From Capitulum mitella (taxonomy: Eukaryota; Arthropoda; Thecostraca; Pollicipedomorpha; Pollicipedidae), in the NCBI GenBank assembly GCA_030062745.1, contig CP099841.1:35158974-35222973 (forward strand): DNA of 64,000 nucleotides, in the 5' to 3' direction. Made by a program: the position numbers and the translations under genes. Below are positions 5,085-64,000 of this stretch, piece by piece. The notes beneath the pieces were generated by a model. The model saw only the letters and a list, made by a program, of their open reading frames with translations. It searched no databases and was not told the DNA's origin. Each line of letters begins with the position of its first letter. Position 1 is the first letter of the stretch.

Positions 5085-8000
5085 TTACGTCATCGTCACG
5101 CCCAGTGCTGTCCGGCACTTCTCGTAGACGACGTACGATATGCTGACGGCGGGCGCCACCTTGAGGAAGTTGGGCGCGATGCCCCGGTACAGGCCCAGGA
5201 AGCCCTCCTGTTTTACGATCGAGCGGAACTGGGCGCGCATGTTGAGGCTGGAGGGGTCGATGCTGCCGGCCCGCTGCTGCATCACGGCTGCAACGCAACC
5301 AAACACGGCGTCAACGACCAGAACATACTCATCTTTCCCGAGAACACAACGGATGCAGAGTGATCACCCGCAGCCTTCGCACGAAACGTCAGAGCTGCAG
5401 GAGAGCAGTGAGTCCAGGGTACAACCGCGGGTAGGAGGTACTCGACGAAACACATCACAAGACGGACAGCAGGCAGTACGCGGGACAGATCACACGCCGG
5501 GTAGGGAGGACCAGCGAAGTCACCTGCGGCCTGTAGTCGCGTGCGGACCAGCGCCAGCGGGTAGGAGGCGATCTGGCCGCATGTGCTGCTAACCGTGCCG
5601 CAGGCCAGCAGCACCATCACGCCCGGGTCCTCTGACTGGTCGTGGGTTCGCAGGTAGTGCTTCTTCAGCGTCTCGTACACGGTGAGGTCGATGCCTGCGG
5701 AACGTTCCAGAGCGTCACATGCGCGATATCGCTTCATGGGCTGGGTGAGAGCAGGCCCTTCTACACAAACCTGCATGGCCGCACAACGGCCTGGCAGCAC
5801 ATGAACGCACACTGGCAGGGAGTCCTGCCTGTGTGCGTCAGTTCTGCCGCGGGCCGCGGGACCGACGCAGCCCACATACTGGGCTTCATCACAGAAAAGT
5901 AGCGAGAAAAAGAGACGCGAAATCACGACACAGGCGTACGCTACACACCGTAACCCTCCCGGAGAATTTGTATTACTGACACGTCAAAATTCTTCACCTT
6001 CTCCAATGCCACTGGCAGTCGATCTGCGCAGTCGCCTCTGAGCACACTCGGAACACGACGTTGATCGCTGATGGTTCTGTTCGACACAACGCATCTGCCA
6101 ACCCTGCCAACGCCAGCCGGTAAACTATGCCCAATAATAGCGGCCCACCGGAACCACTGACCAGCGTAGGGAATGATGCCCAGCAAGTTGGGAACGTAGC
6201 CCTTGTAGAAGCTCCGGAGGCCCTCGGTGCGGTAGATCTTCAAGGCGGCATCCAGCATGCCCTTGTACTGGCCGGTCCGACGAAGGGCCAGCCGGGTCTT
6301 GAGCACCTGCGAGTTGAGAGCAAAAGGAAGGGTCACAGCCGCGCAGCCGAGCATCACGCGTCCACACGGATGTGACAAAGCTCGCGCCGCTTCACCGCGC
6401 ACCAGCAACAAACGTCTACCTCTACGGGTGCTAAAACTGCCAACATGTCGGGTCCGGAGTTTCTCAGCATTTCTAATGCAATGGCTTCTTCATAGACGTG
6501 AGAAATAGTTGAATGTCGCAGTGGGTCCCTGACCTCTCGCCTGCACTCACAGCTAGGCCTCTATCAAAGTGGCACACGATCTCCCGTAAACAGAGCAATC
6601 AAACGTTCCACAATCCACCAGACAAACAAACCCCTACCAAACCAGAGCCAAGCCAGCATACCCACGCTCCACGCCTCGCCGAGCAACCCCCTCCCTTCCC
6701 ACGGACCGCTGCGTCCCTGCCGCACCTCCATCGGGTAGATGACCGTCTGGCTGAAGCTGCCCGCGAAGCTGCCCGCCGCGAAGCGCTCGTAGACGGTGAT
6801 GTCGTGAGGGCCCTCGCCGCGCAGCGCCCGCTTGGCGTACTCGTACGCCATGAACTTGAGCGCCGACTCGGGCGCAATCTTAAGCACGTTGATGCCGTTA
6901 CCGCGCCACAGCGACGGCACGCCGCCCTCGTTGAGCATATGGCGTAGGCAGTGCCGGATGCTGCAGAAGTGTGACTTGCCATGGACCTGCAGCCAGGAAA
7001 CACGTTCAATGATCGCACGTGTGGACGGCGAAACTTGACTGGGAGTTCAGTGCGAAATGGCTTCGTTTAGGGGCGATAATTATGCAGCTGCCAAGGGCTA
7101 GGCCGGCGGGACAAGACTGCCTCTCACAGATATGCGCAATTTTTTCAACAGCCAGGTCCGATCCCCAGGTCTGTCCGCAAATCTACGTCTCACAACCTGC
7201 ACGTAGAGACGCGGGGAACGGAAGCCGCGAGTCCGATCCCCGGCCGTGCCGCACCTGCAGGAAGACCTTGAGTCGGTCGAGCGGCGCGGTGGCGGTGCGC
7301 GACACGGCGCCGGCCACGCCGCCGGCCAGCAGGTGGCGCCACCACAGCCCCTGCTGCAGCTCCTCGGCGCTGAAGTCGTCCGGCACATTGAGGTCCTCGC
7401 CGATGTCCAGGTACTGTAAGCAGAGCAGACCGCGCGCGTCCAGCCGGCGCAGCAGCGGGTGCAGCGGGTGGGCGGAACGCAGCGCGGCCGGCGGCAGCCA
7501 GGCGGCCACCGGCTGCAGCGGCGGCGGCGGCGCCGACATGGCGCACGTCACCGCCGGCCGCGCGGCGCGCAGCCGGCAGCCGCCGCCGCCGTCGCGCCCG
7601 CCCATGCCGCGCGCGGGAGGGGAGAACGTCGCTGGCCGGACCGGCGCACACGGCTGCCGGGGAGAGGAGAGGTCTGTGTCAGCGAGAGCCAAGGGCGCGG
7701 CCGCGGCGGTCGGCCGGCCGGCGTCCCCGGAGGACCGGCGGTCACCGCCCGGCCTGCAGCGGCCGGCCGGCCGGGCTGCACCGGGTCACGGGAGCCCCGC
7801 GGCCCGGGCGACAGCGGCGCCGCCGGCCGGCCGGGCGCAGCAGGGTCCGAGCCGGCCGCCGGGTCCGGTCTCAGGGACGCCGAGCGGAGCACACGACCGA
7901 CCGCCAGCGGCCCCGGATCGGGCCATAACCGAAACACCCCGACAGAAGCCATGCAAAGTGCCGGCCCGCTGAACCACTGTTCAACAGTGCAAACATCTGT

Positions 8001-21512: not shown

Positions 21513-42630
<21,118 letters not shown>

Positions 42631-58646: not shown

Positions 58647-61600
58647 TCATATTCCCATACCTGTAAGGCACGCCTTCAAAGTGCATCCCGCCACTCCGTT
58701 TTCTGCACAGAAACATGAGTTGCAATCCTCTGCGTCCATAAACACCGCGCCAGGCAAGCACTTCTCGTCTGTGGGTTGAATCGTATTGCTACAAACGATA
58801 CCACATGTTGCTCTGTTACAAGGGGACGAAAGACATACAGCTGTGGAACAACAACGTTCACTTCTAGCATGCTCTGTGTCGGCTAAGACTAAAACCTCAT
58901 AGACTGATTATCAACCATGTTTTTCGAGTTGAATTCGGCATTCAAATTCGAATTCGGGAAACCTAAAACAGGAAGAACAGAGTTATGACTTTGATTAGGT
59001 CGAGAGCCGAGGCACGTCAAGGCCGTACTAAACAGGAAACTGCAATCAGAAATGTCTTATTTTCAGTGACGCGCATGATCACGACGCTCCACTAACACAA
59101 ATGGCGGACTTACAGCGTTTCTCCGAAATATTTCGCCAAGGTAAAAATGTTTTCATATAAAAAGAATTATACAAGAAATTCATGAAAAATTTATCAACAA
59201 AAATATTATATATATGTATGTATATGTATATGTATAATATTTATTTACATTATATTATTTTTATTGGTTAATTAACTTAATTATATTACATTAATTATAA
59301 ATATAACTATACTTTACTAATAAGTAACATAATCAACTAACATATACACATATAAATTACATTAAAATTAAATTTATGATTATTATTAACAATTAGATAA
59401 TATATAAATGATATATTTAATATACACACTGATATGAAATTTTTCATGAAAATATCTTGAAAAGTAAAAAGAACACATAAGTAAAAATCATGTAAAAAAT
59501 CCATGTAAAAAAAATCAGCCAAGCACTTTCATGGCAAGGCAGAGGGCTCTCACCTGGAGGCTGGACCTTGACGATTCCCTCATGGCAGGAGACAAACTTG
59601 CCAGTCACCTTTGGCAGATTACCCGGCCCACTACAGGCCTGTGGCTGCGTGGTTTGGCCATTTTGACACGTTTTCTCCGTGCAGGAGTACCCACCAGTCC
59701 CGCATTCACAAACGTTCCCGCACTCGTCCACGTATGCCTTTCCATGTGGGCACTCCAGGTACTCTGCAAAAAGGACCGGATGACGACCGTAAGAAGTCTT
59801 GAACCTGGTGCTATCTTCTGTGTCTACCCTCGTTGGTGGGTAAAGAGAGGCTCGCGGCGAGATATCCAGCATAAGTCAAACCACAGTTTGAGTATGTTAG
59901 CGAATAATCTGTCAATTGTCCGATAGACAGAGAGGATTTGGAACGGCACGCTCAAAACAAGTCAACTCATAGCAAAAATGGTAATGTAATTAGGTAGCAA
60001 TGAAGTATGTAAGAAGGTAGTATCAAAGTTGGCAGTAACTTCAGTAGGAAGCAATGAAAAAATATTTGAAGAGTCCATGGTTACATCATGGACTTATTTG
60101 ACCTCATTACGAGAAAACCGACCAAGGAAATCATCTCGCTGATGTCTCTTCAAAACCTATAATGTGTCTCAAGGCCATTTAAAACCTATGATGAAAGTAT
60201 GTCGACCAGCACACAATCATTTCACCACAAAGGTCAGCTTTTACGTTTTTAGTGTCTCTGATGCTGAATTCCATGAGAAGCTAGAAACATGGCGTTTTCC
60301 CCGTGTCTTCAGTCTCAGAGAAAAATCGATCCTCTTGAGCCGGTCACCGATGTTAACCTGATTTGAGGTCACTCCTGGATTACGCAACCTGATGCCTGAT
60401 CCTTGCGTTGTCTCTCATGAACTTCATGCAAGCTATTTCGACAGGGAAAGATAGATTGCGGGCCTTAACCCGCGCATTTTCAGGCGTCCGAATCGCCCAT
60501 CGCTTGTTCGGGGTCGGGGGAGGATGGTCTCGAGAAACCCCACGATCTCGAGAACTAAGAGAGGTACGGAGATGAGATGAGGGTGATGCCAATCGACATT
60601 TCGTCAAACCTAATTACGCCGAGTTTGTATTTTAGGGTCAAGAGGTCAAAAAAGGTCATGTTATGGCGTCAAAAATCCGTGAGTAATAAAAACAAATACG
60701 TTGGTTTTATAAACTGCTCCTGGGTACTGAACAGTTAAAACAGGACCAGAAACAAATGTTTTCCATTAGTTTGCTGCTCTTCAGGTCATGCCAGGTCAGG
60801 TCAACAACCATTGGAATATAACGCTGTTAAATGCCGAAACTGGCACTCAGGTAAAGTTATTTCAAGCACGCGTTCTGGATTCTTGAAATTTTTGCCATTG
60901 CCAATGTTTGGCCAGATATGGCGACTTGAATCAGAAAAAATATTTGTATAGGTTATCCGGGGCCAAAGCAGATCAAGTGAAGTCAGATTTTGCAACATTC
61001 GTATGTCGTGATTGAGTAAAGGTGCGAATGTCAAACAAAACCCATTTTGTCGCTATAATCATGCTGATGCGTTCTTGAATAACATAGAAGTCAAGGATGT
61101 GTCAGGGCAGGGGATGTGAAGAACGAGAGCAGACAATATGCATCTGTCTCATCATCTGTCGCATCTAGTGCGACAGGAAAAACGAAGTACTGAAACAGGT
61201 CTGAGACCATAAAAAATCCTGAAGTCACTACACAAGAGCTGTTAGTTAATACAGTTATGTGAGGTCAACTTAGGGCAAACGAATAATCGCTTGTATCTCA
61301 GAAGTACATCGTCAAAACGTTTGAAACCAACTCTGTACATTGCCTTAAAACATTCCACGAAACTCAACGGCATCCCAAATGACAACTGACTTTTGATGTG
61401 ATCTCAGATCATTTAATGAATTAAAAAGTCGTTTGTACAGGCTCCCAAGCTTCAAGCATGCTTACAAAAATATGCAGCCTTTTTATACCGGAAAAATTTA
61501 GATTTACGCGCAAAAATGTATATATAAAGGCTGTGTCTGGCGAGATAAAACATGCAGATATACAGCTTTCTTTATTCTGGGAGAGACTTGGGCATTGCAA

Positions 61601-62634
61601 GCAAGTCAGGTAAGGGGCGTAGCCAAGGAGGGGGAGGGGGCATGGGGGCCATGGCCCCCATGCCCCTTAAATACGAGGCAGCTTACTTAAAGTTGCTATT
61701 CTTTCCTACAAAGTTCGCCATATACCGGTGGGATATGACAAAATTCGACGTTTGGCCCCTCCATGGGGAAAATCCCTGCTACGTGCCTGAGTCGGGTCAC
61801 ATACGGTCATGGCATTTCAAAGCCTTAATGAGCATAAACTGAAATGTACACCTGTCATGCCTCACCAGAAGTGAATGGCAAATGCATTTCATACCCATTT
61901 TGTCGTACACTTGGTTTAGTAACCAAATGACTTCACCTCAGGTCACTGAACCCTCACGAACGATATGTAGCACCATTCAAAAAACGTATCGGACGAACTG
62001 TAGCTCTTTGCTTATCCAAAAACGTCTCTTGTACAAGGTCCTTTCTGGCAAAAAGGCCAAAAACAGCATTTTAGTACAGGTGACCTGAGGTCAGGTCAAG
62101 CAGTTTTCCGAAACATGGGGAATATACATTTCGCCGAGTCAACACGTAGATTGAGGTCTACACTTAGTTGACAATTAGAACGTCGTTTTCCGTTCTGTGG
62201 AGTAGGATGGCGCGTCAGCAGGACGTGAACACTGAGTCTGTACCTTTCACCAGACGTTTCAGTTTGACAAAGTCTGTGCAGTTCTCCAGAACAGAGGCAT
62301 GATGTTTTAGGCGACCAACAAAGGTAGTTCTATTGAACTAACGATATAAGGTAAAGATCATGATATTTAACAAAATGGTAACCATCCAGTATCGTGCTAG
62401 GGAATTTTAATAGTCTTACGTTTTGGTATGCAGGCCTTGCGTGTGCAGGTAAGAATCCCAGCACTGGTGCACGTGCGGGTGTTGCATTCCACTCGTCTGA
62501 CCTCTCCTGGTGTGCTCTCCTTAAGCGGGCCGTAGGCGGGCCAGGAAGTGTCGATTTGTATTCTTTTGAGAGGGCTCTGGCCCATCCAATGTTGGTTTGG
62601 GCCCCTAATGCTGGTTTGGTCCTCCCAATATTTT
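58647..62634 (-). CDS. Multi-domain pacifastin-type serine protease inhibitor, partial
   Basis: Secreted small-protease-inhibitor family known from arthropods. Three exons with matching phases: 62634(?)-62420, 59763-59554 and 58768-58661 (or reading through its donor to a stop at 58647). Exon 3 is a textbook domain: CLPGAVFMDAEDCNSCFC then GCTLKAC. Exon 2 has CPHGKAYVDEC, GNVCECGTGGYSC and TEKTC, with one extra residue between Cys2 and Cys3, then a linker of about 40 residues containing two more Cys. Exon 1 aligns (TPGEVRRVECNTRTC, TCTRKAC) but has Ser and Arg at the first and third Cys. In this family the residue after the CT of Cys5 is P1: here Arg, Glu and Leu in order. Splice joins: AAA C|gtaag to AG TAC, and CCA G|gtgag to AC GAG. 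The signal-peptide exon was not identified. Confidence 0.75.
59150..59450. repeat. AT-rich low-complexity tract in a pacifastin intron
   Basis: Almost entirely A and T with TATATG-like motifs, in the intron between the second and third inhibitor exons. No coding content. Confidence 0.8.
59764..62419 (-). other. Pacifastin intron with repeat fragments
   Basis: 2.7 kb containing AGGTCA-rich repeat fragments (60620-61300, 61920-62100), a TTAACCCGCGCA motif at about 60466 that matches the tip of element A, and the short element at 61614-61786. No exon recognised. Confidence 0.45.
61614..61786 (+). mobile_element. Short GTAGCCA-end element, copy 2
   Basis: Ends GGGGCGTAGCCAAGG and CCCTGCTACGTGCC. 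Near its left end is a perfect 30-base palindrome (61637-61666) centred on GGCCATGGCC. Related to 42929-43196. Confidence 0.55.
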
Positions 62635-64000
62635 CTGCCGGTTTTAAAGGGAAATGAGTAAAAATAACGAAGAGAACGGCCGCAATGGACAAGAGGCAGG
62701 CAAGAAGTAAAGAATAAAGTCTAAATCGACGTATCTTTCTATGTTTCATGTCCCATCTGTCGATTTATCTGTCTGTCTATTTATCTATCTAATCATCCAT
62801 TTAGTTATTTACCCGTCTATCTATCTATCTATCCATCTATCTATACGCATATGTATATATATGCAAATATAAATATATATATATATATATAGACATGGGG
62901 ATAATTGCAGTATTTTAATTGATAAATGGTAACAAAAAAACTTATAAATTCCCGTTGTTCAAATTAAAGCCGGCTTCACCTGTTGAGAAACCCATATTTG
63001 GGGGTGGGAGAGTTATGTTGTTGGGCCCTTGGCTCGGCCGCCACTCCCAATCATTTACAGAAATCGACACCCCTGAGGCGGACCATCTGCGTCAAACAAC
63101 ACATGTTGGCGGACCAAGTAGTTTCTTTTTGTTTTTTTTTTTGGGGGGGGGGGGTAGAGAGAGGAGGCTGTGCGCTGGGCCTTTCCTTTTGTAACTCTCA
63201 ATATCAGCATGAAACCGCAGAAATTTTGACAGTGCACCAATAACATAGCCAATATGAGGCCAAATGCTGGAAACTAACGGGCCTAGCCAAAGCATGCTGC
63301 GGATGAGGGCTGGCATCACTTGAGAGTGGGAATGGAGTATCGGGCGCAGCTCCCGCCTGTATGGATGGCTGTGAACAGGCGCGGGTGCCGTAAGAACGAG
63401 GACGGCGCCGACGGCGATGTCGCACCAGGCTTGCAGATCTTGGCGGCGAACTGCGTCTCCTTCACAGGCACGGCCTCTTTCGACGAGTTTTTTTGGTGGA
63501 GTTTATAGAAGAGAAAGTGTCATGCTCCAACAGACGTTGTGGTAGATGTCACTGTTGATTGGTATGTTCTGACGTGGAATAACTACCGTTGTTCTGTGAC
63601 CAAGTATCACGAGACAAAAACGTGTTACATTCGGTCGTACCCGGCAACCTCCCCGCCGTTCCACGTGAACCGGTCGCCGGTGGGTGGGAGCCCAGCGCGT
63701 GACGACAAATAGGTTCAACCCATCAGCGAACGGGCTATACTTGGTTGGCCGGCGAGCGCGGAACGCTCGTGTGGTAGACAAACGGGACCAGGAGCCGTCC
63801 AGAGTTTACTGGAATGCTCTAAAGGCCGCGTTGTTGTGTGAGGCGCGGGAGGCAAGGGTCTCCAGCCAAGGGAACCCTAGTTACGCGCAGCCCCACGTGG
63901 ACCCTGAGTCGCAGTCTAGACTCCCGATCGCTCGAGGCGAGCGGACGGCGGCGCATTCACTCATCGCAGGAGCCGGACTCGCGAAGAGTGCTGAGATGGC
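62635..64000. other. Right end of the window
   Basis: A hydrophobic reading frame on the - strand starts at 62749 (MKHRKIRRFRLYSLLLACLL). It coincides with a long polypyrimidine tract before the putative acceptor at 62635 and may be an artefact. On the - strand around 63490-63440, EAVPVKETQFAAKICKPG followed by a gtgcga donor is a weak candidate exon. A G-run lies near 63142-63153. Confidence 0.3.
62756..62891. repeat. (TCTA)n and (TA)n microsatellite
   Basis: TCTGTCTATTTATCTATC-type tetranucleotides passing into TATATA. Low-complexity tract upstream of the pacifastin exons. Confidence 0.9.

Follow-up and report, generated by a model that had tools for sequence, protein, structure and literature searches.

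The window, a 64,000-nucleotide stretch of Capitulum mitella DNA (G000:C3:35158974-35222973, in a searched genome of 16 contigs and 477.0 Mb), probably contains the 3' end of one copy, named copy 2, of a pacifastin gene in which the exons A' and X2 have decayed while B' and C' persist as intact modules, with A' skipped if the gene is expressed. The locus is mostly ordinary and overturns nothing established; its point of interest is the replacement of Arg by Glu at the P1 position of B'. Such a natural switch among otherwise alike domains constitutes a clean test of an acidic P1, and the cluster to which the gene belongs displays gain and loss, exon by exon, within an inhibitor family.

Anatomy of the Locus

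The exon names A', B' and C' follow the 5' to 3' order on the minus strand of the window. The original prediction was based on three reactive-loop motifs, CTRKAC, CTEKTC and CTLKAC, all of which are present on the minus strand (Table 1), and its assignment of P1, strand and phase is correct: in pacifastins P1 lies two residues past Cys5 (PMC13388995, as excerpted), which makes it Arg in A', Glu in B' and Leu in C'. A profile built from 18 domains of the genome, B' itself included, scores A', B' and C' at 36.5, 37.7 and 47.8 bits, and the next-best match in the rest of the window reaches only 6.7 bits; the Pfam family Pacifastin_I (PF05375, cut-off 27.9 bits) gives 36.5, 22.5 and 44.8 bits, respectively. 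The proposed array of three phase-linked domains stands in part: three modules are present, and B' and C' possess both a phase-1 acceptor and a phase-1 donor, but A' has the phase-1 donor only and is incomplete (Cys1 and Cys3 are gone), and five more pacifastin-like exons are located upstream.

Table 1. Features of the window, in window positions
Feature	Position	Strand	Basis or remarks
C2H2 zinc-finger protein	879-2291	plus	
Mitochondrial carrier gene, part	6567-7046	minus	
ADAM-type reprolysin metalloprotease	33240-35681	minus	Single 814-aa open frame; disintegrin match below cut-off
C' exon (CTLKAC, six Cys, acceptor and donor)	58661..58768	minus	Pfam, splice-site reading
CTLKAC motif of C'	58668-58685	minus	
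B' exon (CTEKTC, six Cys, acceptor and donor)	59554..59763	minus	Phase 1-1
CTEKTC motif of B'	59666-59683	minus	
A' relic exon	62420..62516	minus	Alignment to six sister A exons; donor GT 62418-62419 kept
CTRKAC motif of A'	62430-62447	minus	
X2 remnant (Cys-rich, not pacifastin)	63424..63475	minus	blastn break and alignment versus copy 1

With its donor unused, the C' frame stops at a TGA (58647-58649). The profile gave no additional pacifastin domain 3' of C' within the window, no convincing homologue occurs there of the sequence that follows the final C exon in copy 1, and a clear terminal exon is absent from that copy-1 sequence. The open reading frame at 62333-62764 (MKHRKIRRF...), signal-anchor-like, was not counted as part of the gene; its frame is different from that of A'.

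Decay of Exons A' and X2

On its sequence, A' is a relic and not a complete pacifastin domain. It reads STPGEVRRVECNTRTCTSAGILTCTRKAC, and in the alignment to six sister A exons, whose consensus is CTPGEV.QVDCNTCTCT.AGVLACTR.AC, two of the six pacifastin cysteines are gone, Cys1 being replaced by Ser (AGC) and Cys3 by Arg (CGC); the six-cysteine pattern is therefore lacking despite the 36.5 bits scored in Pfam. Pacifastin disulfides pair 1-4, 2-6 and 3-5, so that in A', without Cys1 and Cys3, two of the three bridges are impossible. The open frame of A' contains no phase-1 AG acceptor; in the sister A exons this acceptor is located shortly before Cys1 in all three that were tested and is visible in the alignment of all six. 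The comparison of A' with the A exon of copy 1 gives dS 0.38 and dN 0.18 (P=0.16), with no significant synonymous excess over 32 codons, a length of low power. A functional trypsin head in A' was rejected, two cysteines and the acceptor being missing.

X2, the exon immediately upstream of A', has lost about 190 bases with respect to copy 1, a gap that takes away its acceptor and the greater part of its length; the blastn alignment breaks between 63462 and 63475 versus 88057 and 88263, and what is left over reads KETQFAAKICKPG.

The B' and C' Domains

B' and C' both read as intact exons. The B' exon encodes a pacifastin domain, with six cysteines in pacifastin spacing, together with a second short Cys pair (ACSG...SCHEG). 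Its Pfam score is below the cut-off, as is, narrowly, that of the B exon of copy 1 (27.3 bits), this cut-off being a detection threshold and not a structural feature; B' is counted as a pacifastin because of its six cysteines, the homology of the exon and the match to the solved inhibitor PMP-C (phmmer E=0.0023). B' is modelled by AlphaFold2 with three strands at modest confidence (mean pLDDT 71, pTM 0.36), and the best PDB match in the fold search with this model is SGCI, a weak one (E=0.63, probability 0.69). C' combines six cysteines with a Pfam score above the cut-off, and in the alignment its CTLKAC is also present in PMP-C.

With respect to the corresponding exons of copy 1, B' shows dS 0.87 and dN 0.28 (P=0.0009, a value for the whole exon and not for the Glu itself), and C' shows dN 0.13 with saturated synonymous sites (P=3e-11, whole exon). 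These values point to a long past period of purifying selection on B' and C'.

Gene Cluster and Divergence of the Copies

The five further pacifastin-like exons (D, H, G, E and F) are located beyond the window on the upstream side, interspersed with Cys-rich X exons, and presumably belong to the same gene, being grouped with B' and C' by order, strand and phase. F, E, G, Xa, H, Xb, X1, D, B' and C' have in-frame candidates for a phase-1 acceptor and donor, some of the X-exon donors being poor matches to the consensus. G and H are characterized by shortened Cys5-Cys6 loops (ACVGGC and ACTPC), which makes inhibition by these two domains unlikely. X1 (C3:35224084-35224303) and its sister exons, placed between pacifastin exons, are of the Cys-rich type CPADCG...CxxCxCG...; the one X exon scanned in Pfam gave no match up to E=10.

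The cluster appears to comprise at least three gene copies, the window holding the 3' end of copy 2. Copy 1, located further upstream, has the exon order F, E, X1, D, X2, A, B, C, and beyond it five tandem A-B-C triplets, their A exons spaced at 1394 bases, occupy C3:35273513-35280597. Near the start of another contig, C11:10542-14804 repeats part of copy 1 (C3:35244191-35248454) with the same scores, the result of either a translocation or a duplication in the assembly.

Copies 1 and 2 share an exon (MRTSLLLLSGLL..AAAAFP) presumed by reading to encode the signal peptide, whose ATG in copy 2 is at C3:35236840, some 14 kb past the end of the window on the upstream side; a similar exon (MKTSLLLLSGLL) is found near the third array. 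In copy 2, AT takes the place of the donor GT of copy 1 and of the third array, so that normal splicing from that start would stop, and no other feature suggests as strongly that copy 2 may be dying in its entirety. The signal exon with its donor differs between copies 1 and 2 at 4 of 63 bases, one of the changes being that in the donor, and has evolved no slower than its surroundings.

The divergence between copies 1 and 2 is uneven. Three 5' blocks of 3901, 850 and 1347 aligned bases differ by 4.0, 3.9 and 5.1%, respectively, and the 3' flank, from 63475 to about 64500, differs by 28% over 991 bases; this jump from about 4-5% to 28% indicates that copy 2 consists of two halves with separate histories, and gene conversion or partial duplication would give a boundary of this kind. 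Over the 630 bases of exons F, E, X1 and D the two copies show 11 differences, below the approximately 4% of the adjacent blocks.

The best surviving alternative, doubtful but to be taken seriously, is that the copy-2 gene is wholly a young pseudogene, the Arg to Glu change in B' being drift or left-over variation of no present function. The altered donor of the signal exon, the deletion of X2 and the broken A' agree with it, and with its near-identical sister copies the family does not depend on this one. However, the exons from F to B' and C' listed above keep their phase-1 splice candidates, F, E, X1 and D have changed less than the sequence around them, B' and C' bear the marks of past constraint, and an alternative first exon is conceivable.

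P1 Glutamate in the Genome and in the Literature

The original prediction also held that a P1 Glu is unexpected. The census of P1 residues was made on DNA fetched under 89 of 91 Pfam places (C3:30408500 and C11:10542 being left out), in which 112 profile matches of at least 12 bits were found, 102 with the full six-cysteine pattern. In these 102 domains, which include near-identical repeats and are not independent, P1 is R in 45, L in 31, K in 7, E in 4, M in 4, H in 3, D in 2, V in 2, S in 2, T in 1 and Y in 1. Contigs C2, C3 (B'), C11 and C12 carry the four P1 Glu domains, and a fifth one, CTEHTC on C12, has six cysteines and was missed by the census pattern.

The B-like relatives aligned from C3 and C11 are 20 domains, 18 of B-type and two of E-type; the former, with 52-59% identity to B', carry CTRKAC in 18 of 18, and the latter CSSHSC. 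B' therefore has Glu where all 18 of its closest relatives in the fetched DNA have Arg. Eight domains of a cluster on C2 have B'-like spacing between Cys2 and Cys3 but only 38-48% identity, and their P1 is L, M, V or R, never Glu. On the same contig, 22 profile matches are packed in about 11 kb (C2:20680321-20691443). The genome as a whole holds at least 102 six-cysteine pacifastin domains, and in a tabulation of 14 arthropods, as excerpted, the maximum is 40, in Nasonia (PMC5673224). Chitin_bind_4 (insect cuticle) domains number at least 150 in the genome (150 of 627 candidates scored); they identify the host as an arthropod and argue against amphioxus, an early candidate.

Among 284 pacifastin domains surveyed in 2009, Asp, Glu, Asn and Gln together occupy P1 in 13%, and the effect of an acidic P1 in pacifastins is called unknown in the excerpt of that survey (PMC2689174). 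According to a 2026 survey (PMC13388995), P1 Glu is a hallmark of pacifastins from molluscs and non-metazoans, and arthropods have shifted towards Arg, Leu, Phe and Ala. The two surveys and the genome census, with 4 Glu among 102 domains and one in addition, contradict the expectation, and P1 Glu as an unprecedented state was rejected; in arthropods a minority of domains carry it, yet it is known in the family.

Proposed Explanation and Targets

In the preferred reading, copy 2 would be a many-domain secreted pacifastin gene and a member of a recently duplicated cluster. Its delimited exons are symmetric, phase 1-1, and can consequently be gained or lost without a break of the frame. X2 was deleted and A' decayed with the loss of the acceptor and of two cysteines, B' and C' being kept; if the gene is expressed, A' would be skipped and B' and C' would represent the last two inhibitor modules of the precursor. 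Each of them is predicted to act as a canonical (substrate-like) inhibitor, C' putatively directed against chymotrypsin-like proteases and B' most likely against subtilisin-like ones, for example microbial.

The target suggested for B' is based on analogy across families with Kazal domains in which P1 is Glu: domain 2 of CrSPI-1 inhibits subtilisin with a Ki of 2.5 nM, and two P1 Glu domains of the shrimp SPIPm2 inhibit subtilisin as well (PMC3082530, as excerpted). Among the literature matches listed, none is a P1 Glu pacifastin assayed on subtilisin. The choice originally offered for such a domain, between a Glu-preferring protease and loss of function, leaves out the subtilisin-type targets seen in the Kazal inhibitors. 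As for the idea that one gene would cover several protease classes, the presence of several specificity types in one precursor is common in crustacean pacifastins, as excerpted from the 2009 survey (PMC2689174), and is thus ordinary, but the trypsin-type member, A', is broken here. It is unlikely, on the whole, that B' constitutes a new specificity, acquired after duplication by an Arg to Glu change, a reversal of charge through which a head of trypsin type became an anti-microbial one of subtilisin type while A' was discarded.

Glu-specific serine proteases exist and Glu occupies P1 of B', from which B' and C' could be imagined to be joined to some other gene or first exon not seen here, with a Glu head opposed to such a protease. 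This arrangement is very improbable: the profile found no pacifastin domain 3' of C' in the window, and P1 Glu inhibitors of another family (Kazal) act on subtilisin when tested (PMC3082530, as excerpted). Three active heads in one protein, directed against trypsin, Glu-specific and chymotrypsin-like enzymes, are scarcely credible, because the three motifs and the phase-compatible donors that favor them include an A' devoid of two cysteines, two of three bridges and the acceptor.

Comparison with Known Systems

A role of the copy-2 gene in the barnacle adhesive is possible, because pacifastin proteins are reported in the adhesive of Pollicipes pollicipes in the excerpts of two studies (PMC8371367, PMC7177777). 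In the adhesive of Amphibalanus amphitrite, pacifastin was not found according to the excerpt of one of them (PMC8371367).

The Kazal inhibitors CrSPI-1 (domain 2, horseshoe crab) and SPIPm2 are similar to B' in that they are canonical, belong to marine arthropods and have Glu at P1, a functional analogy only. The Kazal fold and cysteine pattern differ from those of pacifastin.

The closest system is the pacifastin family itself (MEROPS I19/PF05375), which includes PMP-C, SGCI/SGPI and the crayfish pacifastin light chain. B' and C' share with it the six-cysteine core, and the gene has the P1 residue in the Cys5-Cys6 loop, a presumed signal peptide followed by many domains, and clustered duplicates. 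In contrast, A' has lost two cysteines, B' and its relatives are one residue longer between Cys2 and Cys3, and the pacifastin exons alternate here with Cys-rich X exons.
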